From assembly GCA_937135955.1 (NCBI GenBank), contig CAKZOB010000067.1, positions 1-56,581 of the forward strand: a stretch of DNA of 56,581 nt. Direction: 5' to 3'. The notes under the pieces were generated by a model. It had not been told where the DNA came from, searched no databases, and worked only from the letters and a program-made list of their open reading frames with translations. Below, piece by piece: positions 1-44,115 of the stretch (the first letter of the stretch is position 1; each line of letters opens with the position of its first letter). Both the position numbers and the translations under genes were made by a program. This DNA comes from an uncultured Anaerolineales bacterium. Its GTDB lineage: Bacteria; Chloroflexota; Anaerolineae; Aggregatilineales; Aggregatilineaceae.

Positions 1-441
1 GCGCGCGCTGGCCGCCTGCCCGCCGATCATGCCCAGCACGCCGCGCTCCGGACTGAGCACGCCCAGCGTATTGGGGCCGACGAACTGCGCTCCTGCCTCT
101 GAGGCGGCTGCGGCGATCTCCAGCACATCATAGAGCGGCACGCGGTCGGGGACGATCACCAGCAGCCGGACACCGGCAGCGATCGCTTCCAGCGCCGCGC
201 TCTTGACCAGGGGGGCCGGGATGAACAGCACACTGATGTCAAGCGGCCCGGCTTTCTCCCACGCTTCGCCGACCGTGTCGTAAACGGGCACGCCTTCGAC
301 CGTCTGCCCGCCCTTGCCCGGCGTGACACCGGCGACCACCTGCGTCCCATAAGCCCGCATGAGGCGTGTGCGGGCCATCCCTTCCCGCCCGGTGATGCCC
401 TGCACAAGCACCCGCTTCGAGCGGTCAATCAGGATCGCCAC
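1..441 (-). CDS. CoA-ligase alpha subunit, SucD-like (partial, runs off the window)
   Basis: This is the N-terminal 147 residues of a succinyl-CoA synthetase alpha-type protein, the CoA-binding Rossmann subunit that carries the phosphohistidine in SucCD-type ligases. Visible family signatures are VQGITGREG at the start, VVAGVTPGKGG, GVPVYDTV, and FVGPNTLGVLSP near the window edge. I chose the GTG at 439-441 because the family N-terminus (AILIDRSKRVLVQGITG) begins exactly there. The frame opens inside the end of the upstream ATP-grasp gene with a 17-bp overlap, so the two subunits are probably translationally coupled. The active-site histidine region lies outside the window. The substrate acid cannot be deduced from this part. 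Confidence 0.85.
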   Translation of the reverse strand, partial: MAILIDRSKRVLVQGITGREGMARTRLMRAYGTQVVAGVTPGKGGQTVEGVPVYDTVGEAWEKAGPLDISVLFIPAPLVKSAALEAIAAGVRLLVIVPDRVPLYDVLEIAAAASEAGAQFVGPNTLGVLSPERGVLGMIGGQAASAR

Positions 442-1999
442 GGGTCACCTCCTCGCCTCTCATGGGCTGAACCGCATCCAGCCCAGGGATCGGCAGGTGC
501 ACATAGCCCCCCTGGTTGCCCTCAAAATAGCACTCAATCTCGCAGGCGAGGCACTCCACACAGCCGCCGCGCTCTGCTTCCTGGCGGGTGATGTTCAGCA
601 CGGGCACGTCCCCCTGCAGCGACAAAATCTGCGGAGCGCACGTGCTGATGCAGACCTTGCTGACGCAGTCGCGGCAGCGCGCGTGATCCAGGGTGACCGT
701 CCCACCGCTGACCGCGTTGAAGCTGTAGGGACTGGCTGCCGGGCGCGGGCCGTAGTTCGGGCGTGTTTCCTGTAGAGGGGGGGTCTGGGCGATCAGCTCG
801 CGCAGGCGGGCCGCACAGAAAGCGGGCGGATCGTCCTTGCCATAGGCTTCGACGGGAACCAAGAAGTGCGGCTGAGCGCGCCGCAGGATGGCAATGGCCT
901 GCTCCTCGGCATTGCCGCCCAGGCGAACAACCGCCGGAACGGTCAGCGGCGCTTCCAGAAAAGCCTTGACCAGTGCGCGCGCCGAGTGGTACTGCTCCTG
1001 GCTGGCCACGCCGCTACCGCTGGCGAAGTAGCCGTCAAGGCCCGGCTGACTGAGGATGATCCGCGCCGCGCGGTAGACCTTGCTGGCAGGGGGATTACCG
1101 CTGGTGTCCACGAAATCGGCGGGGCGCAGACCCTGCGCCGCCAGCGCGTCCATGCTCATCATGCTGCCGCCGCCGCCCGCCCCATGAAAGCCGACGAACC
1201 CTTGCCCTCGCGCAATGTCTCGCGCCATCTGGATGAAGAAGAACGTACCCCGGTAATCCCCGCGCTCGACTTCCCAGGCGATGCGCTCCAGCGGCGTGGG
1301 AGGGCGATCCAGCTCGCGGGCGAAGGTGATCCCCAGGTCGGGTTGACGGAAAACCGCGTTGTCGTCAATGGTGAAACGGCAGTCGGCGGCGATCAGCCGC
1401 CCATCTGCCGTCAGCACCAAGGGGTTGATCTCGGCGGCGCGGGCATCGAAGCGGCGCGCTGCCTGGTACAGCCGGGGCAGAATATCCCCGATCTTGACCA
1501 GCAATTCGCCGCGCAGCCCGGCCCGGCGGGCCAACTCGCGCGCCTCGAAGTCGCGCAGGCCCAGGCGGATGTCTACGGTGTGACGGGCGACGCTCTCCGG
1601 ATGTTCGCGGACGATCTCCTCCACACCCGACCCGCCGCGGCTGCTGAAGATCAGCACCGGTGCGCGCGCCTGATCGTCAATGATCACGCCAGCATAGAAC
1701 TCGCGGGCGATGGACAGCCTTTCGACGACCAATACCTGCTCCACCGGATAACCGCCGAGCTGCATATGGAGGATGGCAGCGGCGGCCTCTGCCGCGGCGT
1801 CGGGATCGTCTGCGAACCGGATCGCCCCCAACGCCGCGCGTCCGGTCACCCAAGCCTGCGCCTTGACGACCACCGGCCCGCCGATCTCCGCGGCGATGCG
1901 GCGCGCCTCGTCCGCTGTGACCGCAACCTCGCCGCGCGGCACAGGGATGCCCACCTGGGCGAGCAGGGCGCGGCCTTGATACTCGTGCAGTCTGGCCAT
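425..1999 (-). CDS. SucC-like ATP-grasp CoA ligase beta subunit fused to a C-terminal two-cluster ferredoxin domain
   Basis: A 524-residue protein, against about 390 for ordinary SucC. The first 390 residues follow the SucC plan: an N-terminal HEYQGRALLAQVGIPVPRG, an ATP-grasp lysine in VVVKAQ, the Mg-binding AAEINPLV, then a CoA-ligase domain with GFHGAGGGGSMMSMDA, PADFVDTSGNPP and VVRLGGN. The extra C-terminus holds eight cysteines in two sets: C442, C445, C450, C454 (CxxCxxxxCxxxC) and C480, C483, C486, C490 (CxxCxxCxxxC). That pattern fits two [4Fe-4S] clusters. The gene starts 3 bp after the upstream ARH gene and overlaps the alpha subunit. Known: SucCD couples an acyl-CoA to nucleotide phosphorylation. 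Inferred: the iron-sulfur tail ties this ligase to a redox partner or a redox-sensitive role. Confidence 0.85.
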   Translation of the reverse strand: MARLHEYQGRALLAQVGIPVPRGEVAVTADEARRIAAEIGGPVVVKAQAWVTGRAALGAIRFADDPDAAAEAAAAILHMQLGGYPVEQVLVVERLSIAREFYAGVIIDDQARAPVLIFSSRGGSGVEEIVREHPESVARHTVDIRLGLRDFEARELARRAGLRGELLVKIGDILPRLYQAARRFDARAAEINPLVLTADGRLIAADCRFTIDDNAVFRQPDLGITFARELDRPPTPLERIAWEVERGDYRGTFFFIQMARDIARGQGFVGFHGAGGGGSMMSMDALAAQGLRPADFVDTSGNPPASKVYRAARIILSQPGLDGYFASGSGVASQEQYHSARALVKAFLEAPLTVPAVVRLGGNAEEQAIAILRRAQPHFLVPVEAYGKDDPPAFCAARLRELIAQTPPLQETRPNYGPRPAASPYSFNAVSGGTVTLDHARCRDCVSKVCISTCAPQILSLQGDVPVLNITRQEAERGGCVECLACEIECYFEGNQGGYVHLPIPGLDAVQPMRGEEVTRGDPD

Positions 2000-2002
2000 C
2001 GG

Positions 2003-4126
2003 TCAACCCTCTCTCGGCGGTGCGAGCGGGCTGATGCGCACGCCCTCATAGGCAGTGTGACTACCGTGCCAGGTCGAAAGCCCGATCTGTCCGTGCAGGT
2101 AAGGCGCAGGATCGGCCCAGGTCAGGGTCGCGCGTTGATCGCCGCTCGCGGCTTCCAGGGTCAGATGAGGGCCTTGAGCAATGAACCGCAGCATTACCGG
2201 TTGCCCGTGCTGCCAGGGGAAAGAAGTCGAGACGACCGGCGTGTCGTCCTGGCCATTCTTGCGGTAGAGGGCCAGCGTGCCCTGTGGCCCCAGTCCACCG
2301 GCGTAGGAACGCAGCGCGCCCTGTACGCGGATGTTGAGGTTATGGTAATCGCCGATCAGGGGGATGACCCGCGCCTCCAGGCAATAGTCTTCCCAGGCGA
2401 TGTCGCCCGTGTACGTTTCGCACAGACCGGGGCCGCTGCCGTGATAGCGCGCGTCGCCTTCTAACCGCCAGTAGCCGCGCAACTTCGTCCACTGGCTGAT
2501 GGCGTTGCCCTCGGCGCGCTCGCGGGCGAAGTCGAAGCCGTAGTCGGGCGTGCCCGACCAGTCGAGCGCCTTGAGATGCAGAGCGCCGACCTCCCAATCC
2601 GCGCCCAGGTTGCGGATAACGACACCAACCTGCGATAGACAGACTCCATCCAGGCGGGGAATCTGCCAGGTGAGCGTTTGCCATGCGCCCGGCGTTAGCG
2701 CCTGCCCGACCGACTGATGGCGCTCGCCAGCGTGATCGTCGAAGACATAGAGGCTGGCCTGGAGCGTGGAGGGCGCATCCGCCGGCAAATAGACCTCTGC
2801 CCTGACAGTCTGGCCAGGGAAGATCAGGGGCGTGAATGTCGCGCCGTAGTAGTTGCCGCTGAGTTCGGCAGGCCGGTAATAGGTGCGCGTGAACAGGCGT
2901 ACCTCACCCTTCTTGCCCAGCTTGCGCACGCTGACCTGCAACGTCCCCTCATGGCTGACTGCGACGGACTGCCGCGTCTCGATCACCCGTCCGCCCACCC
3001 CCTGCGCCTGGAAATTGCAGGTCGAACCCCGGTAGCGGAAATGGTAGCGCGGGCGCTGAGCGACAGTCTGCCCGGCCAGCGCACGCCCCAGGGCACAGAA
3101 CAGATCGGCGCATTGAGGGATAGTCAGCAAGTTGCGCGTGCCAATCACACTGGCGGCGATCAGCAGGTCGTTGAGCGGCTCGCGCCAGCGCCACTCGATG
3201 CCGTCCAGGCCGACCGCCACGCCCATGATCGCCCCGACATTGCCCACGTTGCAGTCGGTGTCCCAGCCGGCCATGTTGGCAATCTGGATCGTGCGGGAGA
3301 AATCGCCCTGCCCATAGGCCAGCGCCATCACCACCACCCCTGCGTTGGGGATGATGTGCACTGCACCGGGATAGCGGTCGTAGCCGAAGTTCGCCTGCAG
3401 AAAGGCCATGCAGGCGCGCCAGTCGTCGTCGGGGTGCTGCGCGTGGAAGTCCAGCACAGCGCGCACCACCCGCGCGTACTCGCTGTCACGAGGGATCAGC
3501 GCCAGGCCGGTGGCGATCAGCGTGAGCGGGTCAGCTTCCTGAAAAGCCGCGCTGACCAGGGCGGCGATGAAGCGCCCTCCCAGAACACCATTGCCATCGT
3601 GCGAGACGCTCGACGCCCGCGCGGCCAGGTCGGCGGCCAGGGCGGGGTTGCCCGGCACGACCAGCCCCCAAAGGTCGCTGAAAATCTGCCCGCCGATCTG
3701 CTCGGCCACGATCGCGCCGTTTTGCGCGATCGATCCGCTGCGCGGCGCGGGGATGCCACTGGCCAGGTTCAGGTAGGCGGTGTGCTCGGTCGAGACGCCG
3801 TAGCCACCCCACCACAGCGTGCCTTGCTGATCGCCAAGGTAATTGAGCCAGGCGTCAGCAATCTGTTGGGGCGATAGATCGTACCCCGCAGCGGGGTGAT
3901 CCTGCAGCGCCCGGATGAGGATCATAGGAAAGGCGGTGTCGTCGTCGGGTTTGAAGACCTTGCCCGGCGCTTCGTTCAGGTAGCCGTCAATCTCGCCCAC
4001 GTTGCGGCAGATGTCATCGTAAGTCCAGCCTTCGAGCGGCGCGCCGAAGCGCACGCCGATACATTTGCCCAGCCATCCGGCGTAAACCCGTTCGTCGTAG
4101 TCAGGGGGGATCGTCACTAGGGTCAT
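2003..4126 (-). CDS. Long ADP-ribosylglycohydrolase-fold protein with C-terminal beta-rich (carbohydrate-binding-like) domains
   Basis: A 707-residue protein. Residues 1-350 have the ADP-ribosylglycohydrolase (DraG/ARH) fold: an N-terminal GWLGKCIGVRFGAPLEGW helix, a D61-D62-D63-T64 metal loop (PDDDTAFP), and a second metal site in GWDTDCNVG (D289, D291). Residues about 370-520 look like a galactose-binding-type beta sandwich. Residues about 520-700 look like a LamG/concanavalin-type domain (YWRLEGDARY, YEGVRISPL). There is no signal peptide, so it should be cytoplasmic. It sits in an operon with a sugar ABC transporter and a shorter ARH gene. Known: ARH enzymes cleave N- or O-ribosyl bonds with two metals. 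Inferred: this subfamily acts on an imported glycoside or ribosyl compound rather than on modified proteins. The canonical GDA motif of helix 1 is altered to GVRFGAP. Confidence 0.82.
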   Translation of the reverse strand: MTLVTIPPDYDERVYAGWLGKCIGVRFGAPLEGWTYDDICRNVGEIDGYLNEAPGKVFKPDDDTAFPMILIRALQDHPAAGYDLSPQQIADAWLNYLGDQQGTLWWGGYGVSTEHTAYLNLASGIPAPRSGSIAQNGAIVAEQIGGQIFSDLWGLVVPGNPALAADLAARASSVSHDGNGVLGGRFIAALVSAAFQEADPLTLIATGLALIPRDSEYARVVRAVLDFHAQHPDDDWRACMAFLQANFGYDRYPGAVHIIPNAGVVVMALAYGQGDFSRTIQIANMAGWDTDCNVGNVGAIMGVAVGLDGIEWRWREPLNDLLIAASVIGTRNLLTIPQCADLFCALGRALAGQTVAQRPRYHFRYRGSTCNFQAQGVGGRVIETRQSVAVSHEGTLQVSVRKLGKKGEVRLFTRTYYRPAELSGNYYGATFTPLIFPGQTVRAEVYLPADAPSTLQASLYVFDDHAGERHQSVGQALTPGAWQTLTWQIPRLDGVCLSQVGVVIRNLGADWEVGALHLKALDWSGTPDYGFDFARERAEGNAISQWTKLRGYWRLEGDARYHGSGPGLCETYTGDIAWEDYCLEARVIPLIGDYHNLNIRVQGALRSYAGGLGPQGTLALYRKNGQDDTPVVSTSFPWQHGQPVMLRFIAQGPHLTLEAASGDQRATLTWADPAPYLHGQIGLSTWHGSHTAYEGVRISPLAPPREG

Positions 4127-4210: not shown

Positions 4211-5506
4211 CTATTCGCCGTAGCTATCGTCCAGGCAGAACTGCGCCTTGGCTGCTTCCTCGGCCAGTATCGCTTCCAGGTCGCGCTCGCCGTTCTGAAT
4301 CCAGCGCACGCGCACATTGTCGAAGGCGGGATAGACGCAGTCCCAGAAGTATTGCGAGCGCAGATAGTTGGCGACGCGCGTTTCCTTCATCAACTCGGCA
4401 TAGGCCACGCCCAGGATCGGGTCTTTGTCCCAGCCAAGCTCCTGCCAGATTTGCGGACCGTTGGGCGGCCACACGCCAGCTTCGGCGGCCATGCGCTGAG
4501 CCTCTGGCCCGCTCAGCCACTTGAGGAATTCCCAAGCCGCTTCCTTATGACGGCTGCCCGACCACATGTAGTGGGCGTAGGCATCCGTCCAGGCGATGCC
4601 CTCGCTGTTCTCGTCATAGCGCGGTGGCTCGACCACACCCCACTCGAAGGTGGCCTGCTCCATCAGCGCGGGGATTTCCCAGTTGGAAATGGACTGCATG
4701 GCCACTTTTCCAGACAGAAATACCAGCTCACCATACTGGTCTTGCAGTTCAGCGGGCGCAGCGACCTGATCCTCAGTCACCAGTTCCAGGCAGAAGCGCC
4801 ACGCTTCGGCGGCGGCGGGCGTATCGAAGTAACCGACCACCTGACGCCCATCCGGGCTGACGACATCTGTGCCCAGGTTGAAAGAGAACGGCGACCACAG
4901 CATACAGCCCTCACCGCCGACGATAGCCCCAACGCCATACTGGTCTTTCTCGCGGTCGGTCAGTTGCTTGGCCAGCGCGCGGTACTCGGCCACAGTCCAG
5001 CCCGGCTGCGGATAGGGTACGCCTGCCGCATCGAAGAGGTCCTTGTTATAGGCGATGAAGCCCGCCGAAGCATCGCGCGGGACACCGTAGTAGCGCCCCT
5101 GGTAGACCGTGCGCTGTTGCCCGATGGGGAACCAGACTTCCTCAGGCTTGAGGCCCGACGCCTCCATGTAGGGAGTCAGGTCTTCCAGGAAGCCCTGGGT
5201 CGCAATGTCCGCTGCGTAGTAGGTCGTCCACACGTCGGGGCCTTCGTTGCCAGCAATGGCCGTCGCCACGCGGGTGTTGAAAGCCCGACTGGGGAAGAGC
5301 GAGATCGCCACGCGGATGTTGGGATTGGCGGCCTCGAAGGCGCGGGCGAGCTGGAAGTGCAGATCGCGCGTCGCCGCCGTGTCGCGGCCACGTTCTGTGC
5401 TCCACCAGGTGATGGTCACTACCTGCTGGTCTTGCGCCTGAATGGCACCCAGCGGAGCGAGCATTGCCACGACGAGTACCAGAATGATCCATATGCGCTT
5501 GTTCAT
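4211..5506 (-). CDS. Extracellular solute-binding protein, carbohydrate ABC family 1
   Basis: A 431-residue secreted binding protein. A cleavable-type signal peptide (MNKRIWIILVLVVAMLAPL, then GAIQAQ) is followed by VTITWWSTERG, the usual first strand of family 1 sugar-binding proteins. Later landmarks are VAISLFPSRAF, GNEGPDVWTTY, YYGVPRDASAGFIAYNKDLFD and a late WEFLKWLSGPEAQ. It delivers its ligand to the permease pair encoded just upstream (ends at 5629). It follows the permeases, whereas the binding protein usually comes first. A strong SD (AGGAGAG) precedes ATG 5506, and a GC hairpin follows the stop. The ligand is unknown. The ARH neighbours suggest a ribosyl or N-glycoside compound, which is inference only. 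Confidence 0.9.
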   Translation of the reverse strand: MNKRIWIILVLVVAMLAPLGAIQAQDQQVVTITWWSTERGRDTAATRDLHFQLARAFEAANPNIRVAISLFPSRAFNTRVATAIAGNEGPDVWTTYYAADIATQGFLEDLTPYMEASGLKPEEVWFPIGQQRTVYQGRYYGVPRDASAGFIAYNKDLFDAAGVPYPQPGWTVAEYRALAKQLTDREKDQYGVGAIVGGEGCMLWSPFSFNLGTDVVSPDGRQVVGYFDTPAAAEAWRFCLELVTEDQVAAPAELQDQYGELVFLSGKVAMQSISNWEIPALMEQATFEWGVVEPPRYDENSEGIAWTDAYAHYMWSGSRHKEAAWEFLKWLSGPEAQRMAAEAGVWPPNGPQIWQELGWDKDPILGVAYAELMKETRVANYLRSQYFWDCVYPAFDNVRVRWIQNGERDLEAILAEEAAKAQFCLDDSYGE

Positions 5507-5628
5507 TGCCTGTCTCTCCTAAAAAGAAACTCACCAGAGGATGCGAAACGGTTGTTGTCGCCAAGGGGGAATATCGCTTACGGCACACCTCCTCTCAGGG
5601 CAGAAGCCTGCTTGCAGTGCAAAGGCGG

Positions 5629-6495
5629 CTATCCTTTCAAGCCTTCCACAGAAATCCCACCAATCAATTGCTTCTGAGCGAAAAAGAACAGGATCAGCGG
5701 GGGAATCATCGCCAGGACAGAACCGGCCATGAGCAAATTCCAGTTGGTCTCCCGCGCGCCCTGGAAGAAGCTCAGTCCGAGCGACACGGTGAACATGTCG
5801 GGATCATTGAGGTAAATGAGCGGTTGCAGAAAATCGTTCCACACGTCAATGAAAGTGAAGACGATCACCAGCATCAGCGCAGGGCGGGTCAGCGGCAAAA
5901 TGATGCGCCAGAACACATCGAAGCGGTTGGCACCGTCAATATAGGCCGCCTCGTCCAGATCGAAGGGGATGCTCATCATATACTGGCGCACCAGAAAGAT
6001 CAGGAAAGGGCTGCCAGTGAATGCGGGCAGGGTGAGCGGCCAATAGGTGTTGATCATGCCAAGCTTGGAAAACATAATGAAGCGCGGCACCAGCGTCACA
6101 TGGTAGGGGATCATCAAGGTGGATAGCATCACCAGGAACAGGATGTTGCGCCCTGGGAAGCGCAGCCGCGCAAAGCCGTAGGCAACCAGCGTCACCGAGA
6201 TCAGGTGCCCCACGATATTGACAAAGGCCAGGAAAAAAGTGTTGAGATAGAAGCGGCCAAAGGGGACTTCTTGAAAGACCTTGGAGAAGTTGTCCCATTG
6301 AACAGGAGCAGGTATCCATTCCGGCGGGATGGCAAACGTCTGCTGGGGCGACTTCAGCGCCGTCGAGAACATCCAGTAGAGCGGGACCATGAACACCGCC
6401 GCCAGCACCATCAGCACGGTATAGCCGGAGACATTGTTGAAACGGCGCAAGCCACGCAGTCCCAGTCGGGGGAAATGGCCGCTGATCGTTGTCAT
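5629..6495 (-). CDS. Carbohydrate ABC transporter permease, MalG type
   Basis: A 288-residue inner-membrane permease of the MalG class. A first membrane span (YTVLMVLAAVFMVPLYWMF) is followed by the periplasmic FAIPPEWIPAPVQWDNF loop, further spans, and the cytoplasmic EAA motif DEAAYIDGANRFDVFWRI, ending ILPLTRPA, which docks onto the ATPase. The C-terminus (KQLIGGISVEGLKG) is typical of MalG proteins. It overlaps the MalF-type gene by 4 bp (ATGA), so they are translated as a pair. No ATPase gene is present in this operon, so the pair must use an ATPase encoded elsewhere. Confidence 0.93.
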   Translation of the reverse strand: MTTISGHFPRLGLRGLRRFNNVSGYTVLMVLAAVFMVPLYWMFSTALKSPQQTFAIPPEWIPAPVQWDNFSKVFQEVPFGRFYLNTFFLAFVNIVGHLISVTLVAYGFARLRFPGRNILFLVMLSTLMIPYHVTLVPRFIMFSKLGMINTYWPLTLPAFTGSPFLIFLVRQYMMSIPFDLDEAAYIDGANRFDVFWRIILPLTRPALMLVIVFTFIDVWNDFLQPLIYLNDPDMFTVSLGLSFFQGARETNWNLLMAGSVLAMIPPLILFFFAQKQLIGGISVEGLKG

Positions 6496-7436
6496 GGCGT
6501 CCTCTTGCGTTCAGCCTCGTAGTAAACCCAATACTTTGAACTGCGGAACACCAGCACAGTGAGGATCATGATGAAGACTGTCATGATCCAGGCCAGCGCC
6601 GCCCCATAGCCCATGCGCATGGACTCGAAGGAGCGGTTGTAGATGTACAGCATGTAGAACAGGCCAGATTGCAACGGCCCCCCACTGCGCCCGGCAGCGA
6701 TGAAAGCCGGCGTGAAGGTCTGAAATGTGCCAATCAGCCCCAAGACAAGCTGGAAGAAAATGGTAGGAGTGAGCATTGGCAGCGTGATGCGTACGAATTG
6801 CTGAAGGCGATTGGCCCCGTCTACGGCGGCTGCCTCGTATAGCTGAGCAGGGACGTTTTGCAGCCCCGCCAAGTAGATCACCGCGCTGCCACCGACGCCC
6901 CACAGCGCCATCATGACGATACTGGGCAGCACCCAGGCCGGGTCGGAAAGCCAACTCGGCCCCTTGATGCCGAACCAGCCCAGCATGGTGTTCAGCAGGC
7001 CATAGCGGGGGTTGAGCACCCACACCCACACCAGCGAGCTAGCCACCTTGGGCACGATATAGGGCATGTAGTACAGCGTTCGGAACACCCCGATACCACG
7101 CAGCTTCTGGTTGAGCACCACGGCGATCAGGATGCCGAAGACGACTTCCAGCGGCAGATAGAGCACGGCATATTTGAGCGTCACGGTGACCGCTTTGCGG
7201 AAGAAAGGGTCTTGGGTGAAGATGCGCTCGTAGTTGGCCAACCCCACCCATTGCGGGCTGCCCACGATGTTCCAGCGGGTGAAGCTGAGCACGAACGAAG
7301 CCACGATCGGCCCGAAGAAGAACACGATGAATCCAACCAGCCAGGGCGAAATGAACAGATAGCCGGCTAACGCCTCGCGCCGCTCGCTGGCAGAAAGCTG
7401 TGTCCAGGATCGCGACAGGCGGGTCAGCGCAGTCAT
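6492..7436 (-). CDS. Carbohydrate ABC transporter permease, MalF type
   Basis: A 314-residue permease. The N-terminal span (GYLFISPWLVGFIVFFFGPIV) is followed by the family landmarks SFTRWNIVGSPQWVGLANYERIF, FRTLYYMPYIVPKVASSLVW, and the EAA loop LYEAAAVDGANRLQQFVRI with TLPMLTP. It forms the translocation pore with the MalG-type protein. It is sandwiched by 4-bp overlaps with the short ARH gene before it and the MalG gene after it, so ARH, MalF and MalG are tightly coupled. Substrate specificity cannot be read from the permease. Confidence 0.93.
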   Translation of the reverse strand: MTALTRLSRSWTQLSASERREALAGYLFISPWLVGFIVFFFGPIVASFVLSFTRWNIVGSPQWVGLANYERIFTQDPFFRKAVTVTLKYAVLYLPLEVVFGILIAVVLNQKLRGIGVFRTLYYMPYIVPKVASSLVWVWVLNPRYGLLNTMLGWFGIKGPSWLSDPAWVLPSIVMMALWGVGGSAVIYLAGLQNVPAQLYEAAAVDGANRLQQFVRITLPMLTPTIFFQLVLGLIGTFQTFTPAFIAAGRSGGPLQSGLFYMLYIYNRSFESMRMGYGAALAWIMTVFIMILTVLVFRSSKYWVYYEAERKRTP

Positions 7437-8446
7437 TGACTGTCTCCCCCGACAGGTTCAGCCGATAGCACCAGATCAACCAGCGCCTCGGCCAGGTTGA
7501 GCACGTCTTCGTTCCGGACAAAGCGCAGGCTCACGCCGCTGGCAACGCGCACCTGCTGTACCCAGCGCTCAGGAATGACGGTCAGACCATGCAACGCCCC
7601 GGACAGCGCCCCGCAGATAGCCGCAATGCTGTCGGCGTCTCTGCCAAAGTTGGCGGCCCAGAACATCCCCTGTCTGAAGTCACCTGCCGTCAGGCGGAAG
7701 ATGGCGAACACCTGAGGAATGGCTTCCGCGCTCATAGAATGTACGGGAGTCCACAAGGCAGTGTGCAGGTCTTCCCAGGCACTCAGTATGTCACCGGCCC
7801 GGTCGCAGATATCCATTGCCCGGTCGAAGGCGCGACCAAGCCAGCTATCGTCGGGAATATAGCGGCGCGCGGTCTGCACGATCGTCTCCGGCGAAGCGTC
7901 CACCATGGCGACGGCGACGGCTGCGGCGACGGCCTGCGCCGCCCATACGCCATCCGCGTGATGGCTGATCTCGGCGTCAATGCACGCCATTGCTGCAGCG
8001 CGATCCGGATCGCCCGCGCAGAAGATGCCGATGGGGCTGATGCGCATGGCCGCGCCGTCGTCGTTGTTCTGGACGTTGTCAATGCCGCTGAGCGGAGGGC
8101 GCATCCCGCGCTTGATATTTTCGACAGCCCCATGGAGCGGCTTTCCGGCGCGTTCGAAAACGCCGCCCTGCTCGATGATGTGCTTCTGCCAGGCAGTCAA
8201 CACCGCCTCGGAGGTCAGATTTCCCCCACAGTCGAGCAATGTTCGCGCAGTGAGCAGCCCAAATTCCGTATCGTCTGTGCTCCTGGCCCCTGGATAGAGG
8301 TCGGTGATGATCCCATAGCGGCTGCGGTATTCAGGGCTGCGCCCCAAGTCGCCCATGGCATCGCCAACGGCGAGGCCGATCAGGCACCCCGTTGCTTTGC
8401 TGACAAATAGCTCTCTGTCACGGAGCAGGTCTACCCGCCTGCGCAT
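7433..8446 (-). CDS. ADP-ribosylglycohydrolase family protein (short form)
   Basis: A 337-residue protein with the canonical ARH plan: ATGCLIGLAVGDAMGDL near residue 20, the metal loop S56-T57-D58-D59-T60-E61, and a C-terminal FGRDADSIAAICGALSGALHG with the second metal-binding aspartates. Known ARH enzymes are dinuclear-metal hydrolases of ADP-ribosyl or related ribosyl bonds. It is the first structural gene of the operon and lies directly behind a 16-bp LacI-type operator. Its stop overlaps the permease start. Unlike the longer ARH at 2003-4126, it has no extra domains. The pairing of two ARH-fold enzymes with one sugar importer points to catabolism of an imported ribosyl compound, which remains inference. 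Confidence 0.88.
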   Translation of the reverse strand: MRRRVDLLRDRELFVSKATGCLIGLAVGDAMGDLGRSPEYRSRYGIITDLYPGARSTDDTEFGLLTARTLLDCGGNLTSEAVLTAWQKHIIEQGGVFERAGKPLHGAVENIKRGMRPPLSGIDNVQNNDDGAAMRISPIGIFCAGDPDRAAAMACIDAEISHHADGVWAAQAVAAAVAVAMVDASPETIVQTARRYIPDDSWLGRAFDRAMDICDRAGDILSAWEDLHTALWTPVHSMSAEAIPQVFAIFRLTAGDFRQGMFWAANFGRDADSIAAICGALSGALHGLTVIPERWVQQVRVASGVSLRFVRNEDVLNLAEALVDLVLSAEPVGGDSQ

Positions 8447-8512: not shown

Positions 8513-9526
8513 TCAGGCCGGGGCGCAAGTCGTCTCGCGCACTCGCAGCTCTCCCCGGAGCCACAGGTGACACGGCCCTTCCGGCCCCGACCCCTGGATG
8601 CGCGCCAGCAACAAATTGGCCGCCTGGACGCCAATGTCGTACTTGGGCTTGGCTACTGTTGTGAGAGGGGGAGAAGTTGTGCTCGCCGCCTGGATATCGT
8701 CAATGCCGATGATAGACACATCCCTGGGGACGATCAGCCCGGCCTCTCGCGCGGCGATCAGGGCACCGATGGCCAGAATGTCGTTGCCCGCCAGCACAGC
8801 CGTCGGCGGGTGCGCCAGGCTCAAGAGCCGATGCATAGCCTCCACACCCCCCGCCTGCGAGTAAGGGCAGCGCACTATAAGGTTTTCGTCGAAGGGCAGC
8901 CCATGGCGCAGCAGCATCTCAACATAGCCGTGATAGCGCGTATCAGGGCGATCGCGCTGTGAGATACCGGCGATCAACCCAATGCGCGTGTGCCCCAGCG
9001 CGATCAGGTGTTCGAGGGCCGTCGTGACGGCCCCTGCCGAATCGCTCCCCACCGAATCGAAGTCGGGGAAAGCTTCGCCAGAACCGAGCAGCACCGCCGG
9101 TGTCTTGAGCGCGCGCAGCTCGGCATTGGTAATGCGGATAGGATTGATCAGCAGGCCATCGAAGCGATTGCGCCGTACTGTTTGCAGGTGCGCGATCTCG
9201 CGCCGAGCGTCCCAATCGCTGTTCAGCAAAGCCACGGTATACCCCTGGGCTTCGCAGGCATCCTGCACACCGCGCGCGACTTCCGGCCAGAAGGGGTTAG
9301 TGATATCTGGAATGGAGAGGGCGACCATGAGCGTCTGGTCGGTGCGCAGGCTACTGGCAACAATATTGCGCTCGTAGCCCAGCATGGCAATAGCAGCCAG
9401 GACGCGCTCGCGCGTCGCCTCGGCCACACTTTGATCTTCGCCGTTGATGACGCGACCGACGGTGGTCTTGGAGACGCCGGCAAGGCGTGCCACATCTTTG
9501 ATGGTTGGCTGCTTGGCTTTTGCCAT
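8513..9526 (-). CDS. LacI-family transcriptional regulator of the ARH/sugar-transport operon
   Basis: A 337-residue LacI-type repressor. The N-terminal helix-turn-helix reads PTIKDVARLAGVSKTTVGRVING and is followed by the hinge-helix region (LAAIAMLGYERNIVASSLR). The periplasmic-binding-like effector domain includes VALSIPDITNPFWPEVARG and ends SPPLTTVAKPKYDIG. I start at ATG 9526 (MAKAKQPTIKDV) because a purine-rich SD (AGAGAAG) precedes it. The longer frame to 9574 would begin inside the operator. It likely represses itself through 9549-9560 and the operon through 8475-8490. The effector is probably the transported compound or its breakdown product. Confidence 0.93.
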   Translation of the reverse strand: MAKAKQPTIKDVARLAGVSKTTVGRVINGEDQSVAEATRERVLAAIAMLGYERNIVASSLRTDQTLMVALSIPDITNPFWPEVARGVQDACEAQGYTVALLNSDWDARREIAHLQTVRRNRFDGLLINPIRITNAELRALKTPAVLLGSGEAFPDFDSVGSDSAGAVTTALEHLIALGHTRIGLIAGISQRDRPDTRYHGYVEMLLRHGLPFDENLIVRCPYSQAGGVEAMHRLLSLAHPPTAVLAGNDILAIGALIAAREAGLIVPRDVSIIGIDDIQAASTTSPPLTTVAKPKYDIGVQAANLLLARIQGSGPEGPCHLWLRGELRVRETTCAPA

Positions 9527-9548
9527 GATCTTCTCTACTTGCCTTATA

Positions 9549-9560
9549 GGGAACGTTCCC
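9549..9560. promoter_or_regulatory. LacI-family operator O1 (GGGAACGTTCCC)
   Basis: A perfect 12-bp palindrome immediately downstream of the -10 element of the LacI promoter, over the expected transcription start. It matches the core of the 8475-8490 site, about 1.07 kb away. This supports autorepression and possibly looping between the two sites. Confidence 0.85.
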
Positions 9561-9564
9561 ACAC

Positions 9565-9593
9565 ATCGTATCAAGTTTTACCGGCGTTGTCAA
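9565..9593 (-). promoter_or_regulatory. Sigma70-type promoter of the LacI gene
   Basis: On the minus strand, TTGACA (9588-9593), a 17-bp spacer and TACGAT (9565-9570), followed at once by operator O1. The spacing and -35 hexamer match consensus. The predicted start is near 9558, giving a leader of about 30 nt. Confidence 0.8.
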
Positions 9594-17406: not shown

Positions 17407-20322
17407 TCAGTCTCCCAGGGCAAAGTCCAGTCTCAAAGTGATGATACGCTTGGGCGGAACCTGTAACGCCACACGACCTTCTGCGTCCACTGCCAGTGTT
17501 TCGCCGGTCGGCTCCTCCAGCAGGTTGGCGAGTTTGACCTGCGTCACTGGCACGTCGAACTGAAGCATCCCTGTCACGGTCTCCTCGCTGCTGTTGTAGA
17601 ACCGGGCGACGATCCCCGCCCCCTCCTCGGCGGGCTTGAGTGCCGTCAGCACCAGTTCGGGCGGACGCAAGGTGAACAGGGTCAGCGCTGGAGGTAGTGT
17701 CCCCTGCGCTGTCTCAACGGCCACACTGCGCAAGGGAGCGACAAACGCATAGGCCAGGTGCGCGGCCTGATCGAGATCGAACGCGCCGCCGAAAGCAATG
17801 AGGCTGTATTCAAACGCCGCCGGGCCGAGGCATTGTGCGCCGGGCGTAGGCCGTTTAGGCCCCGCATGTCCCGGTCGGCAGGTCAGATCGTCCAGCGAGA
17901 GCCAGCCCACCGACCGCAATAACGTCACGGCGATAGTGGCCTGCGCCCCCTCGTGAAGCAACTCGTATTCGGGCAATCCGCGCGTCGCCACCAGCAACCC
18001 TTGCCCGCCTTCTTCCACCGCCGTGAAGACACGCTGCGCCGCAGTAGGGGCCGGTTGCTCGGCCCAGCCAGAGGTATCAGCGGGTGGCTCGAAACGGCGC
18101 TTCAACCGGTCGAAGTGCCCGTCCACGATAGCCGTGTCACTGGCACAGCCAGTTGGGAACAGGACGCGCAACCGGTGATTCACAGCCTGGTTGTCCAGTT
18201 CGGTGCGCACGTCCACGCGACGCACGCCGGGCATGACTCGCACCGTAGTCGTCACCGGCAGCTCAACCGTCTGCGCGCTGCGCCCATCGCGATCCGGCGT
18301 CAGGTCAGCGGGCAGCGCATAGACAGAGCGAATGACCAGACATTGCCCAAAGGGGCCATCGTCCAGATACTCGACCAGCGAGGGGCGCAGCGGCGCTGTG
18401 ATCCGCACGTCGTGCGCAGGGGGACAGTAATCGTACTCGTCGCCCCGGTCTCCGCCGTCTTCCAGGCCGTTCAGCCCGCGCAACACGCGGTTCGTGCCCT
18501 TCTCGACCAGCGTCAGCGTGCCATCCGGAGCCGCCTCGACGCGGAACCACTCGTTTTCGATGGCCGGTGGTTGAGCAGCGTCCGCCGGACGCAAGGCAAA
18601 AGTGCCCGAAGCCATTGCCTGGGGCACGGCAGTCAGCCGATAGCACGTATAGCCCACACCGGCGACATCAGCCGCCACGAAGGACAGCCGCTGATTGCCC
18701 ACCAGGTGTGCCACGATCTCGAAACGCTGGCAGCCCCGCAGACGAGGCTCGCCGCGCAGTTGCCGCACTAGGCCCGCGAAGCTCCCGATCTGGCCTGTGT
18801 GGTATTCCGGCAATTCCATTTCCAGCCGCACACGTCCGTCGCCCAGCCATACCCGCACATTGTTGATCAGGCGGCCTTTGTAGAAACCAACCTCGATCCT
18901 GTCTAGCAGCGCCTGCCACTCCTCCGGCCCGATCACCATTGTCTCAGAAGACGACTCGGTCTCGTCCACCACCCGGTAGGGCACGGCTCGCCCTTGCCCA
19001 TCCAGCAATTGCCACCCCATCCCTGGGCCAGGCCAGGGAATAGTCACTTCCACCGGGCAGGTTTGCGGCTGCGCCAGAGGGTTATATACCAGCACCACGT
19101 AGTCAGACTTCGCCGAGATAGCCGCCAGGGTCGGCGGATCGGGTTCGGGGTAGTCAGCCAGGCGAGGCAACTGTGCGGCGTCAATCTGCCGGGCCAGATG
19201 GTACAGGCCCGCCTGGGTGACTTCGTGGGCGATCTGTTCGCTCCAGGCGAAACGGATGCGCATCTCCTCGTGCACCTGATCCACCGAGCAGCCGCAGATC
19301 GAGTCGTGCGGGTGATTCTCGATCAGGTAGCGCCAGGCGCGCCACAGTTCCCCGCGCCGGTCGCGCCCGCCACACAGCCACGCCAGAGCGCTTACCGGCT
19401 CCGCGTAGCGTTCCAGCGTCGTCTCGCAGGCGTGATTGCGCTGCTTGATCCACATGCGCGCCGAATAAACCCCTGGCAGCACCGGTGAACGCTCCGGCGA
19501 GCGCAGTTCGCCCCGCACTACCGGAATATCAGCGCCGTCGCCCAGGTGCGCTCTCACCCTGGCGATATGATCTGGCAGCGTGCCATGAACCAGCACGGCG
19601 CGCCCGGCCAGGCGCTCGTTGGCTACAGCGATCAGGGCGGGCAGTTCGGGTTGCGGCATCATGTGATCGGTGCCGTTCAGCAGCAGCAGATTCGGCGTGT
19701 GCGCGTGCGGAGCCAGCCGTTCGATCTGCAGTTCCACAGCGCGGGTGAAAGCCTCCGGCGTGGTCGGTGCCCAGGCCAGGTTACCGTAGCCTTCGCGGAA
19801 GTAGATGGTCAGCAGGCGCGTGCCATCGGGCGCTTCCCACCACAGTTCGGTTGGCCTGTCGCCCAGGCCACGCTGCAACGCTGCCGCTTCCAGACCGCAC
19901 CCCGCCAGGATTTGCGGCAACTGACTGATATGCCCGAAGGGATCGGGCGTGTAGCCGATGGGCAGCCGCGCCCCAAAGCGCGCGCAGACCTTCGCCCCCA
20001 GCAACAGATTGCGCACCGTCGCTTCGGGGCCGACCAGAAACTCGTCTGGCAGGATATGCCAGGGACCGATGAACAGGCGGCCAGCCGCGATGTGACGGCG
20101 CAAGTCAGCTTCCCGCTCAGGGCGCATTTCCAGGTAGTCTTCGAGCACGATCGTCTGCCCATCCAGCAGAAAGCTGTGGTACGCCGGATCGCTGTCGAGC
20201 AGATCGAGCAGGCGATCGATCAACTCCACCAGGCGGAAACGAAACACCTGGAACGGCTGATACCACTCGCGATCCCAGTGGGTGTGCGAGACGATTGTTA
20301 TGTGATAGGGCGCTGCAGTCAT
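17407..20322 (-). CDS. GH38 alpha-mannosidase
   Basis: A 971-residue cytoplasmic alpha-mannosidase with no signal peptide. The zinc-binding N-terminus HTHWDREW provides H15 and D17. The nucleophile is the aspartate of TPDPFGHISQLPQIL (D127). A further zinc histidine lies in ENHPHDSICGCS. A large beta-domain follows (PVTTTVRVMPGVRRVDVRTELDN) and the tail has ARFYNSSEETVTGMLQF, as in bacterial GH38 enzymes. It removes alpha-mannosyl residues with retention of configuration. It closes the transporter operon read from 27250, starting 13 bp after the PHP-domain gene. The imported sugar is therefore probably an alpha-mannoside or mannose-containing oligosaccharide. Confidence 0.93.
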   Translation of the reverse strand: MTAAPYHITIVSHTHWDREWYQPFQVFRFRLVELIDRLLDLLDSDPAYHSFLLDGQTIVLEDYLEMRPEREADLRRHIAAGRLFIGPWHILPDEFLVGPEATVRNLLLGAKVCARFGARLPIGYTPDPFGHISQLPQILAGCGLEAAALQRGLGDRPTELWWEAPDGTRLLTIYFREGYGNLAWAPTTPEAFTRAVELQIERLAPHAHTPNLLLLNGTDHMMPQPELPALIAVANERLAGRAVLVHGTLPDHIARVRAHLGDGADIPVVRGELRSPERSPVLPGVYSARMWIKQRNHACETTLERYAEPVSALAWLCGGRDRRGELWRAWRYLIENHPHDSICGCSVDQVHEEMRIRFAWSEQIAHEVTQAGLYHLARQIDAAQLPRLADYPEPDPPTLAAISAKSDYVVLVYNPLAQPQTCPVEVTIPWPGPGMGWQLLDGQGRAVPYRVVDETESSSETMVIGPEEWQALLDRIEVGFYKGRLINNVRVWLGDGRVRLEMELPEYHTGQIGSFAGLVRQLRGEPRLRGCQRFEIVAHLVGNQRLSFVAADVAGVGYTCYRLTAVPQAMASGTFALRPADAAQPPAIENEWFRVEAAPDGTLTLVEKGTNRVLRGLNGLEDGGDRGDEYDYCPPAHDVRITAPLRPSLVEYLDDGPFGQCLVIRSVYALPADLTPDRDGRSAQTVELPVTTTVRVMPGVRRVDVRTELDNQAVNHRLRVLFPTGCASDTAIVDGHFDRLKRRFEPPADTSGWAEQPAPTAAQRVFTAVEEGGQGLLVATRGLPEYELLHEGAQATIAVTLLRSVGWLSLDDLTCRPGHAGPKRPTPGAQCLGPAAFEYSLIAFGGAFDLDQAAHLAYAFVAPLRSVAVETAQGTLPPALTLFTLRPPELVLTALKPAEEGAGIVARFYNSSEETVTGMLQFDVPVTQVKLANLLEEPTGETLAVDAEGRVALQVPPKRIITLRLDFALGD

Positions 20323-24642: not shown

Positions 24643-26019
24643 CTACTCTAGCGGAAGACGAATGACGTTTTCCTCACCGACCAACTCAGTCACCGCCTCA
24701 GCGTAGGCCTCCATAGCCTCCTCAGGCGACATCTCACCGGAGACTACGCGCTCAGTCATCAACTGGACTTCGTAGGAAATCTTGGGATAAGCGGGCAGCA
24801 TCGGCCGAACAGTCGTCAGCGGCAGCAAGGCATCAGCCATGGCCGACATGACCTCGTCACCAGCGACCGGAATATCGTCGCGGAAGCTGATGCGCGGGTT
24901 AACCTGTTGCCAGAGCTGTTGCATCTCATAGCTCGACATGTGCGCCAGCAGCGCCCAGGCCTCTTCGGGGTGTTCGGTGTTGGGATTCAGCACCCAGCCA
25001 GTGCCACCGGAGATGGTGACGAAGTCCTGACCCTTGTACCCCGCACCTGGCTCTTTGGCGGGCATCTTGGCCCAGCTCACCACAGCGTTACGGGTCTCCA
25101 CGTCCACGTGATTGAGGATCGCCGAACGCCAGAACCAGTCGCCCTCGACCAACATGGCGATCTTGCCCTCAGCGAACGCGGCGAACGACCGATCGCGGCC
25201 ATCGGCCAGCAGTTGCAGGCGAGCATCGCCCAGTTCCTCGTCCACATAGACGGTCTTGTAGAACTTGAGCGCGTCCAGGATGGCCGGGCTGCTGACGATC
25301 CACTTGTTCTGCTCGAAGTCGTACATGTGATGGCCCGCGCCCAGCAAGACCATGAACCAGCCCTGCATCGTCGTGGCTTCGCCCATGGCGGTGCCAGCGT
25401 TGATCTGCAGCGGCGTGTCCACGCCAGCTTCCTTCAGTTTGCGGGCGGTCTCCAGCAACTCTTCCCAACTGGTGGGCTGCCAGGGCACTTCGATGCCGGC
25501 CTGCTCAAAGACATCGGTGCGGTAGAAGATTTCGCGCACATCGGTGCCCGCCGCAATGCCGTAAATCTTGCCCTGATAGCCGAGAATGGCCTGGATACCA
25601 GCGGGAATGTGGCCCCAGCCTTCCCACTCGTTGACTACCGGCCCCGCGACCTCTTCGAGCGGCTTGAGCAGCCCCGCGTCCACGAACTCCGGCACCCAGA
25701 AACCATCGAAAGCGAACACGTCATGGCCAGAGCCAACGCCCAGATCGAGCGCGTACTGCTCCTTGAGTTGCTCATCGCTGCCGCCGAATTCGACCAACTC
25801 AACCTTGACGTTCTTCCCTTGGGCAGCCATGCTCTCTTCAAAGGAGGGGATGACGCTCTGGTTCAGCCAGTCAACCAGGACAGCATTGACGCCACCGGCC
25901 ACACAACGACAGGTGATCGTCAGGCGGATTTCCCCTTCCTGGGCCAGCACCAGCGAGTTGCTCATGCCCAGCAGCAGAGCCAGCACGCCCAACAAGACCA
26001 GGAACTTTCGCTTGGACAT
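24643..26019 (-). CDS. Extracellular solute-binding protein, carbohydrate ABC family 1
   Basis: A 458-residue secreted binding protein. Signal peptide MSKRKFLVLLGVLALLLGM, then SNSLVLAQ. Mature landmarks are LTITCRCVAGGVNAVLVDWLNQSVIPSF, GVGSGHDVFAFDGFWVPEFVDAG, YGIAAGTDVREIFYRTDVFEQ, ISGGTGWVLNPNTEHPEEAW and a C-terminal MSPEEAMEAYAEAV. The SD GAGGAGG precedes ATG 26019. It stands first in the transport part of the locus, 100 bp after the regulator gene, and probably shares the regulator's promoter at 27289-27317 because no other consensus promoter is visible in that gap. The ligand is probably a mannose-containing glycan. Confidence 0.9.
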   Translation of the reverse strand: MSKRKFLVLLGVLALLLGMSNSLVLAQEGEIRLTITCRCVAGGVNAVLVDWLNQSVIPSFEESMAAQGKNVKVELVEFGGSDEQLKEQYALDLGVGSGHDVFAFDGFWVPEFVDAGLLKPLEEVAGPVVNEWEGWGHIPAGIQAILGYQGKIYGIAAGTDVREIFYRTDVFEQAGIEVPWQPTSWEELLETARKLKEAGVDTPLQINAGTAMGEATTMQGWFMVLLGAGHHMYDFEQNKWIVSSPAILDALKFYKTVYVDEELGDARLQLLADGRDRSFAAFAEGKIAMLVEGDWFWRSAILNHVDVETRNAVVSWAKMPAKEPGAGYKGQDFVTISGGTGWVLNPNTEHPEEAWALLAHMSSYEMQQLWQQVNPRISFRDDIPVAGDEVMSAMADALLPLTTVRPMLPAYPKISYEVQLMTERVVSGEMSPEEAMEAYAEAVTELVGEENVIRLPLE

Positions 26020-26119
26020 TTCTTTTCCTCCTCAGGATCACTTCACTTATTTGGGACAAAAATCAGGCTTTCTTGAGGGAACCAGACAGAAAAAAGCTAC
26101 AACGAACAAGCCTCCTTTC

Positions 26120-27250
26120 CTATGTGCTTGGCGGAGCAGATGTAGACGCCCGGACGACCAAATGCACGGGCACCAAGGTGTAGATTTCCTGGGGCGGTTC
26201 GCCCTCGATGAGGGTGAGCAGACGCCGGGCCGCTTCACGCCCCATCAGCGCCGTGTTCTGCGCGACAGTGGTGAGAGGAGGGTCGGTGTGAGCGGTGAAT
26301 TCGTGGTTGTCGAACCCAATAATGGATAGCTCACGGGGGACGTGCAAACCGATTTGATGAGCCGCACGCAGAACCAGCAGGGCTACCAGATCATTCATGG
26401 CGAAGATGGCCGTAGGTCGATCGGGCGCTCTCAGAATCTGAGCCAGGAGACCCACATCTTCGTTCTCGGCAGTTTTCTGAGCAAACCGCTGGTAGTTGAC
26501 TGTTTCTATTGGCTCGCCCAGGGTGATCATGGGCAGCGGGGCGAGGTTGGCTTTCATCATGGCGTCTCGATAGGCCCGGTAGCGTTCTGCCACAGGCAAC
26601 AGGTCTTCTACCGGTGGCCACGCCGCAAAGGCGATACGCCTGTGCCCCAGACTCAGCAAGTGAGCCATGGCCTGCCAGGCCCCGTCATAGTTCTGGCTGG
26701 TGACACACGGCAGGTGCAGCCCGCGGATGGGGCGGTCGAGCAAAACGACGGGCACCGAACAAGACGGGTTGGCCACGAAGCGCTGATAGGAGCTATCCGC
26801 CACAGGCCAGAGCAAAATGCCCGCCACTCCCTCTTCACACATGGTGCGGATCAGGCGGTTTTCTTCTTCTACACGGCGTTCGCTCTGGGCGAACAGCAGG
26901 CGGTAGCCCCTGGCCTGCAGAATTTTTTCCGCACCGTCCAGCAGATGCCCGTCAAACGTGTAGCGAAACTCGGCAGCGATATAACCAACAAGCCTCATCG
27001 GCGAAGAAGCCGAGCGCACTTCTGCCACAAAGGTGCCCTTCGCCGGAACACGGTAGATTAACCCCTCATCGAGCGCCGACTGCCAGGCCCGTTGGACGGT
27101 TGAGCGGCTGATGCCCAGTTGGGCCGTCAGGACATACTCGCCCGGCAACTGCTCATGAGGCTTGAGTTTGCCGCTGAGGATGGCGTGACGCAGTTCATTG
27201 AGGAGCTGCGTATGAAGCGGGATGGGGCTGTCTTTGGAAATCGTAAACAT
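26120..27250 (-). CDS. GntR-type DNA-binding domain fused to LacI-type sensor domain (AraR-like regulator)
   Basis: A 376-residue repressor of mixed architecture. Residues 1-75 form a GntR winged helix (PIPLHTQLLNELRHAILSGK, LAQLGISRSTVQRAWQSAL, GTFVAEV). Residues about 85-376 form a LacI/periplasmic-binding effector domain (LVGYIAAEFRYTFDGHLLDG, LSIIGFDNHEFTAHTDPPLTTVAQN). AraR of Bacillus has the same plan. The start ATG 27250 has no clear SD and lies 13 bp from a 14-bp palindrome. It most likely represses itself and the downstream mannoside operon, released by a sugar ligand. Confidence 0.92.
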   Translation of the reverse strand: MFTISKDSPIPLHTQLLNELRHAILSGKLKPHEQLPGEYVLTAQLGISRSTVQRAWQSALDEGLIYRVPAKGTFVAEVRSASSPMRLVGYIAAEFRYTFDGHLLDGAEKILQARGYRLLFAQSERRVEEENRLIRTMCEEGVAGILLWPVADSSYQRFVANPSCSVPVVLLDRPIRGLHLPCVTSQNYDGAWQAMAHLLSLGHRRIAFAAWPPVEDLLPVAERYRAYRDAMMKANLAPLPMITLGEPIETVNYQRFAQKTAENEDVGLLAQILRAPDRPTAIFAMNDLVALLVLRAAHQIGLHVPRELSIIGFDNHEFTAHTDPPLTTVAQNTALMGREAARRLLTLIEGEPPQEIYTLVPVHLVVRASTSAPPST

Positions 27251-44093: not shown

Positions 44094-44115
44094 AATGTTA
44101 AGGAAAAAACGAAAC

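Follow-up and report, generated by a model that had tools for sequence, protein, structure and literature searches.

ATP-citrate lyase (ACL) and the pair of citryl-CoA synthetase (CCS) and citryl-CoA lyase (CCL) serve genome surveys as markers of the reductive tricarboxylic acid (TCA) cycle. In one such survey, the ACL of Chlorobium limicola and the CCS/CCL of Hydrogenobacter thermophilus were used as references (PMC9802188). ACL has been reported in Cloacimonadota (PMC8542988). In Planctomycetes, the CCS-CCL genes, annotated as succinyl-CoA synthetase and citrate synthase, are separate in one case and fused in another and were placed between CCS-CCL and type II ACL (section 17 of PMC5459899). 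The subject of this work is a gene on the contig CAKZOB010000067.1 of an uncultured Anaerolineales bacterium (assembly GCA_937135955.1), whose whole stretch of 56,581 nucleotides is referred to as the window. Its product, called beta here, joins a SucC-like core to a C-terminal tail of ferredoxin type, and the family of such proteins is named beta-Fd. Judged by sequence comparison, it is well supported that beta belongs to an enzyme of the ACL or CCS+CCL type and is not SucC.

The beta subunit and its ferredoxin-type tail

The gene and its parts are as follows, with residues numbered along beta:

425..1999, minus strand: beta subunit gene, 524 amino acids (aa), with an ATP-grasp/SucC-like core and a predicted C-terminal ferredoxin-type domain
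1415..1993, minus strand: ATP-grasp_2 domain, residues 3-195 (PF08442, E 1.3e-51)
833..1201, minus strand: CoA-ligase or citrate-binding-like domain, residues 267-389, with the motifs FHGAGGGGS and VDTSGNPPASKVYR
992..1006, minus strand: loop A332-S-Q-E-Q336 of the carboxylate-site region, invariant in the 80-row beta alignment
815..817, minus strand: Cys395, invariant in 80/80 rows, just before the linker and outside both cluster motifs
728..799, minus strand: variable linker, residues 401-424
476..727, minus strand: putative ferredoxin-type 2[4Fe-4S] domain, residues 425-508
638..676, minus strand: cluster motif 1, C442 xx C445 xxxx C450 xxx C454
530..562, minus strand: cluster motif 2, C480 xx C483 xx C486 xxx C490

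The sequence-only reading of the window that pointed to this gene gave no strand. The minus frame is open from 1999 down to 425, and the plus frame across 425..1999 is interrupted by a stop. The start of beta lies 3 bases past the stop of the upstream gene, and its end, stop included, overlaps the alpha gene by 17 bases. This tight spacing and the recurrence of the family in other genomes argue that the gene is real. The beta alignment has 80 rows, namely the window and 79 of 80 named loci, the unreadable L128 having been dropped. In these rows, the catalytic Lys, Asn and Asp of the core (K46, N192 and D206) are invariant. Residues 267-389 reached 22.3 bits against PF16114, the citrate-binding domain of ATP-citrate lyase, which is under the cut-off of 26.8, and the region can be aligned to the citryl-CoA synthetase 6hxq. 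Going by known structures, loop 332-336 is presumably the substrate loop. The AlphaFold2 model of the whole protein has a predicted local distance difference test (pLDDT) score of 91.7 and a predicted template modelling (pTM) score of 0.84.

There are ten cysteines in beta, at positions 207, 395, 442, 445, 450, 454, 480, 483, 486 and 490. Within the last 85 residues they form the patterns CxxCxxxxCxxxC (442-454) and CxxCxxCxxxC (480-490), exactly as the sequence-only reading had described. When ten cysteines were placed randomly in 200,000 trials, motif 1 arose in 11 trials, motif 2 in 5 and both in none. The claim that ordinary SucC lacks the motifs also held, with neither of them found in the 28 SucC open reading frames (ORFs) of the own genome and the phylum, which end 375-385 aa past the match start. 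All eight cluster cysteines are kept in 80/80 rows. Mean pairwise identity in these rows is 0.58 for residues 1-235, 0.72 for residues 260-400, 0.23 for the linker and 0.61 for the tail, so the tail appears to be as constrained as the ATP-grasp part. The net charge of the domain averages -5.0 and ranges from -10 to +5. Modelled alone, the tail has a pLDDT of 90.8.

Profile searches point to ferredoxins, with the window's own scores under the cut-offs, and the fold matches are modest. A Pfam scan of 40 domain members at E up to 1 matched Fer4_9 and Fer4_7 in 37/40 each, while the window's own domain stayed under the Pfam cut-off of 27 (17.9 bits for Fer4_7, 16.2 bits for Fer4_9). The commonest NCBIfam match was OorD, the delta subunit of 2-oxoglutarate:acceptor oxidoreductase, in 39/40 domain members, with the window at 22 bits missing the cut-off of 93. 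FixX, which the sequence-only reading had named beside ferredoxin profiles, is not among the 19 Pfam families matched by tail members nor among the 25 listed of their 72 NCBIfam families; to the eye, the cysteine spacing may resemble that of FixX. The top Protein Data Bank (PDB) sequence match of the domain profile is 8ys5_D, a 2-oxoglutarate:acceptor oxidoreductase chain (E 0.0074). The best fold matches (7bkb_K and 7bkc_K) have a Z of 7.8 and a root-mean-square deviation (rmsd) of 2.2 over 71 residues, and many ferredoxin-type domains are among the matches. Foldseek with the domain alone returned nothing at E 0.001 or better. A two-cluster ferredoxin-type domain, as the sequence-only reading had proposed, is supported at the level of sequence and model by the invariant cysteines, the high-confidence model and the Fer4 matches of its relatives. 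The idea of a chance motif in a plain SucC was rejected on the grounds of the shuffles, the invariant cysteines, the separate clade and the missed SucC cut-offs.

The core-domain fusion looks fixed in the family, as far as the collected sequences indicate. A scan of the named-genome collection, seeded on two core peptides and not on the tail, found 191 relatives, the best 80 of which were examined. This ranking used a query that included the tail and favoured rows that have it, which weighs against the apparent fixity. The record titles of these best 80 of 191 span more than ten labels at phylum level, of which at least two look doubtful; Anaerolineae, Zixibacteria, Aminicenantes, KSB1, Marinimicrobia and Acidobacteriota are among the lineages named in them. 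In the window's order, the family occurs in 27/154 genomes (E up to 1e-85), and the relatives L119 and L120 there are recorded as Aggregatilineales. Of the 28 order rows, 23 could be aligned, the window included, and the eight cysteines are kept in all 23. The five rows left out are L059, in which the domain is present, L067, L068 and L072, which are cut by the contig end ahead of the domain and hence uninformative, and L070, the row of genome G355. A set of 99 genomes centred on the KSB1 genome of L157 was queried with the core alone (E up to 1e-60) and with the domain alone (E up to 1e-15). Both queries matched the same 11 genomes, where core and domain share open frames of 506-531 aa. In the phylum sample of 301 genomes, E values below 1e-200 were obtained only in the window's genome and in G240, and the next best match (5e-77) is without the ferredoxin domain. 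Homologues without the cysteines do exist as ordinary SucC paralogues (28/28), whereas no clade member without the domain or its cysteines was found among the 80 aligned rows, the 23 order rows and the 11 genomes.

Two other readings were rejected. G355 had appeared to be a member without the domain, but the beta frame is broken in that metagenome-assembled genome (MAG) and the domain is readable in another frame. A fusion created by the assembly of one genome does not fit its presence in 80/80 rows and 11/11 genomes. As for the doubtful titles, the beta of the 'Clostridiales' MAG L189 groups with Aminicenantes and that of the 'Trueperaceae' MAG L118 groups among Chloroflexota; gene transfer is the other option in both cases.

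Partner proteins, probable substrate and proposed role of the clusters

Directly downstream of beta, the window ends within the gene of its first partner:

1..441, minus strand: SucD-like alpha subunit, N-terminal 147 aa, cut by the contig end

The remainder of alpha was located at one end of another contig of this genome, C51 (L073 16266-16766), and the two contig ends share a 17-base overlap. On C51, alpha is followed by a CCL-like gene of 274 aa (L073 15445-16266). The two genes are separate in the window's genome, and in G240 alpha and lyase form a single protein of 566 aa. Among the 80 named loci, a SucD-like gene on the same strand was found in 70, at most 150 bases from beta in 56 of these 70, and a CCL-like gene in 60, of which 12 are fused to alpha and 48 stand alone. 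The HAGA histidine loop is present in 64/70 alphas; the remaining six reads are truncated or disrupted, with lengths of 77-287 aa. The lyase active-site patterns, taken from citrate synthase, occur in 54, 53 and 52 of the 60 CCL reads; L124, for one, deviates from the first pattern.

Because SucC-like, SucD-like and citrate-synthase-like proteins are the make-up of ATP-citrate lyase, this trio points to an enzyme of that type. The sequence-only reading had called beta a SucC-like CoA ligase, which is correct for the ATP-grasp/SucC-like core but is not the whole story for a subunit with SucD-like and CCL-like partners. These partners cannot be seen from the window alone since the contig ends inside alpha. 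The SucC cut-offs of NCBIfam are missed by beta (256.4 vs 370 for NF001913 and 244.7 vs 375.55 for TIGR01016), and its nearest curated models are succinyl-CoA ligases. A tree was built from 26 of the 80 beta-Fd rows together with 14 SucC rows and three further rows. In it, one fully supported branch separates beta-Fd from SucC, while AclB and CcsA have long branches and their placement is unsure. A second SucC-type gene of the own genome (381 aa, at G000:C52) groups with SucC in this tree.

The best explanation of these findings is that beta is a subunit of a reversible ATP-dependent citrate-type lyase with a redox-responsive 2[4Fe-4S] module, which is given slightly less than an even chance. 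In this scheme, ATP would be bound by the ATP-grasp core of beta and the phosphate relayed via the histidine of the SucD-like alpha to a carboxylate, giving a CoA thioester. The citrate-synthase-like third protein would then cleave the thioester into an acyl-CoA and a 2-oxoacid, most likely acetyl-CoA and oxaloacetate. These steps and their reversibility are general properties of the ATP-citrate lyase / CCS+CCL superfamily. The clusters would respond to how reduced the ferredoxin pool is and thereby control how active the lyase is or whether it assembles. Cleavage of citrate at the cost of ATP, or the reverse formation of citrate with a yield of ATP, would then take place only under reducing conditions.

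Citrate, yielding acetyl-CoA and oxaloacetate, is probably the substrate. In NCBIfam, the CCL of the window's genome scores above two citryl-CoA-lyase cut-offs (258.9 vs 212; 199.5 vs 193) and below four others. Aconitase-type, isocitrate dehydrogenase (IDH)-type or PrpD genes lie near beta in 35/80 loci. The beta operon of G468 (locus L144) contains all the citrate-synthase-, aconitase- and IDH-family genes that were found in this genome. Among 25 genome handles, in which G371 and G470 are apparently one genome and completeness is given for only 7, five have CCL as the sole citrate-synthase-family match and 19 have a full-length citrate synthase in addition to CCL.

Gating of the lyase by the clusters, which the sequence-only reading had raised beside its oxidoreductase link, is proposed tentatively and stands on weaker ground than citrate as the substrate. 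It is plausible because an ungated lyase beside a citrate synthase, as in the 19 handles above, could run an ATP-wasting cycle. The more specific proposal is somewhat unlikely, namely that two 4Fe-4S clusters on the beta of a widespread bacterial ACL-type enzyme sense the pool of reduced ferredoxin and choose between splitting citrate at the expense of ATP and making it with a gain of ATP, which would turn the enzyme into a switch for the direction of the TCA cycle.

Several observations weigh against the reading as a gated citrate-type lyase. No SucD-like gene is nearby in 10/80 loci, partly owing to contig ends, and in G333, G334 and G335 beta is found at a genomic site other than that of alpha and CCL. 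In one of the 25 handles (G459), a full-length citrate synthase was found but no match to CCL. The second Arg of the VRR motif of ACL/CCS (position 360) is Leu in 70 and Ile in 10 of the 80 rows, and loop 332-336 reads ASQEQ, compared to IANFTD in ACL, TANNTR in CCS and GGITR in succinyl-CoA synthetase (SCS). Since this Arg is lost and the loop differs, citrate is perhaps not the substrate or is bound otherwise; the second Arg and the IANFT/TANNT loop belong to the citrate pocket of ACL/CCS, and such residues bind citrate in human ACL. In the 80 loci, PrpD (13 loci: L124, L125, L127, L131, L134, L145, L152, L154, L155, L157, L164, L167, L171) and a second LeuC-like gene (10 loci: L136, L137, L141, L144, L147, L151, L166, L181, L184, L190) never occur together, and either one mostly stands alongside a first aconitase-type gene. 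They look like alternative dehydratases for one step, and as ordinary citrate requires only one aconitase, this set exceeds its need. The operon of the window's lineage is without TCA-type genes, and its importer and glycohydrolases are not an obvious fit for citrate. Regarding the gating, the wasteful cycle would not arise in the five handles without another citrate synthase, and the domain is kept there too. Finally, cluster binding, redox activity and nearness of the clusters to the active site are all putative.

A somewhat unlikely alternative is that the same trio activates and splits another 3-hydroxy acid with two or three carboxylates, such as homocitrate or a substituted citrate. In its favour, the S333-Q-E-Q336 loop, H272 and R341 are invariant and the second Arg of ACL/CCS is lost, alternative dehydratase types (PrpD or the second LeuC-like gene) occur, and a citrate synthase is already present in 19 of the 25 handles. 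In addition, the best-scoring model for the IDH-type gene in L190 is one of homoisocitrate dehydrogenase, at 351.9 vs a cut-off of 540. Against it, the CCLs of both the window's genome and L190 pass citryl-CoA-lyase subfamily cut-offs, and in G468 the operon genes are the sole candidates found for the route from citrate to 2-oxoglutarate.

The main rival on the role of the domain is docking or electron relay. The domain would correspond in function to the delta subunit found in 2-oxoacid:ferredoxin oxidoreductases and would join the lyase, such an oxidoreductase and HdrA/ETF into a single complex that channels reductive carboxylation and citrate cleavage. A coupling to such an oxidoreductase had been suggested by the sequence-only reading, and the OorD match of most members, the top PDB match 8ys5_D and the negative mean charge of the domain are consistent with it. 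Kor, HdrA, HdrBC or ETF genes lie in the flanks (up to 10 kb) of 9/80 loci, all with Chloroflexi-type titles, and L124, L127 and L131 carry the whole set ETF-HdrBC-HdrA-KorC-KorB-KorA on the opposite strand. However, no such neighbour was found in the other 71 loci, many of them short, nor in the window's operon, the OorD scores are far under the cut-off, and the lyase reaction moves no electrons. POR_N genes occur in 151/154 genomes of the order and hence do not track with beta. The docking reading is considered improbable, and the suggested link is partly supported, by the profile resemblance and by the few flanks.

An equally improbable reading is that the clusters are only structural and stabilize the fold or the oligomer, as in some non-redox proteins. 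It would suit a lyase that needs no electrons, and the fold matches of the domain include RNA polymerase (8hyj_C, Z 7.4, rmsd 2.0, 67 residues) and ribosome entries containing ABCE1 (7o80, Z 6.7, rmsd 3.8, 69 residues), where the matched chain of 7o80 is presumed to be ABCE1. The ferredoxin-like domains of RNA polymerase and ABCE1 are not known to be electron carriers. On the other hand, SucC, CcsA and AclB share the core without such a domain, and one might expect a mere stabilizer to disappear or change in some lineages, but every row and all 11 genomes retain the domain, which is an argument rather than a test.

That beta is a plain SCS beta subunit with a meaningless Cys-rich tail is barely credible: although SucC provides its best structure match (3ufx_E, Z 32.8, 372 residues, rmsd 3.6) and its best PDB sequence match (266.5 bits), the genome has a separate SucC-type gene, both SucC cut-offs are missed, the beta-Fd clade is distinct with full support, and the invariance of the tail cysteines and the conservation of the tail contradict the idea of a meaningless tail.

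Genomic settings of the family

Upstream of beta, the window carries the following genes:

2003..4126, minus strand: ADP-ribosylglycohydrolase homologue (residues 17-311; PF03747, E 3.3e-54) with a long C-terminal extension, directly upstream of beta and conserved near it
4211..7436, minus strand: ATP-binding cassette (ABC) importer of carbohydrate type, conserved neighbours, made up of the next three genes
4211-5506, minus strand: solute-binding protein, whose orthologue in L044 matches PF01547
5629-6495, minus strand: ABC permease
6492-7436, minus strand: ABC permease, named by eye and by conserved neighbours
7433..8446, minus strand: second ADP-ribosylglycohydrolase homologue (PF03747, E 2.4e-52)
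8513..9574, minus strand: LacI-family regulator, head of the conserved gene run

In the window's lineage, the gene run consists of LacI, ADP-ribosylglycohydrolase, the ABC importer (in varying order), at least one further ADP-ribosylglycohydrolase, beta, alpha and CCL, and some runs also contain an esterase-like gene named by eye. This type makes up 15/80 named loci, and HD or TCA-type genes occur in none of the 15. The trio is thus constant, and its genomic setting is variable. At least two ADP-ribosylglycohydrolase paralogues together with a sugar-type importer, LacI and the lyase trio were observed in the window, L044, L081, L085 and L088-L092. A literature search on this ADP-ribosylglycohydrolase operon found nothing usable.

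A different neighbour is an HD-domain (HDIG) protein of about 178 aa, found in 35/80 loci and usually directly after CCL (e.g. L190 13272-13802 and L124 15574-16110). A further observation concerns G270, where L045 5979-7196 encodes a CcsA-like beta of 405 aa without the ferredoxin domain, the best match of the phylum sample after two family members. Its neighbours are SucD, CoA-transferase, HpcH/HpaI lyase, fumarase-like and, named by eye, homocitrate-synthase-like genes, and this set is perhaps another CoA-ligase/lyase pathway. Elsewhere in the window, a scan of ten ORFs found sugar-use genes, namely a GH38 family member, a solute-binding protein and GntR- and LacI-type regulators, at these positions:

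17407-20322, minus strand: sugar-use ORF
24643-27250, minus strand: sugar-use ORF
44095-45204, plus strand: sugar-use ORF
52554-53615, plus strand: sugar-use ORF

Comparison with known systems

Since the nearest curated models of beta are succinyl-CoA ligases, the beta-Fd family could be missed or miscalled in surveys that use ACL and CCS/CCL as markers. If the enzyme does cleave or make citrate, it would represent a further architecture in genomes with Anaerolineae, Zixibacteria, Aminicenantes, KSB1, Marinimicrobia and Acidobacteriota titles. If the clusters do gate the enzyme, the direction of the TCA cycle would be coupled directly to the cellular redox state. In the open-licence literature, searched mostly by titles and abstract openings, no description was found of such redox-tied control by clusters, nor of a ferredoxin domain on SucC, AclB or CcsA.

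The closest described case is that of the CCS-CCL of Planctomycetes, which shows the same pattern of split and fused genes and is likened here by description only; an iron-sulfur domain is not mentioned in section 17 of PMC5459899. CcsA/CcsB and citryl-CoA lyase of Hydrogenobacter thermophilus (6hxq, 6hxp) provide the same three SucC-like, SucD-like and citrate-synthase-like pieces. CcsA shares the GNPPA stretch with the window's beta and matches its fold with a Z of 28.0 and an rmsd of 5.1 over 392 residues. It differs in the loop of the substrate region and in the second Arg, and with 429 aa, aligned to about residue 407, it shows no ferredoxin domain in the match lists. For AclA/AclB of Chlorobium limicola (6hxj), the likeness lies in the AclA-like fusion of alpha and the citrate-synthase-like part in 12/60 relatives and in the fold of AclB (Z 27.4, rmsd 3.1, 330 residues), which at 398 aa is too short for a ferredoxin tail. 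The alpha of the relative L005 is closer to SucD (2yv2, 263.5 bits) than to AclA (6hxj_B, 140.1 bits).

SucC (3ufx) has the core fold and the ATP-grasp residues in common with the window's beta, which differs from it by the ferredoxin tail, the CCL partner, its own clade and the missed SucC cut-offs. The delta subunits of OorD/PorD type likewise have two 4Fe-4S motifs and are the commonest, though weak, profile match, and a chain of pyruvate:ferredoxin oxidoreductase (9bt4_H) matches the fold of the domain (Z 6.6, rmsd 2.4, 64 residues). In contrast to them, motif 1 of the window is spaced CxxCxxxxCxxxC, the domain is fused to a CoA ligase, and its scores are far under the cut-off. As read from these sequences, the new element is the putative ferredoxin-bearing beta subunit, and the make-up of the trio is that known from ATP-citrate lyase and CCS+CCL.

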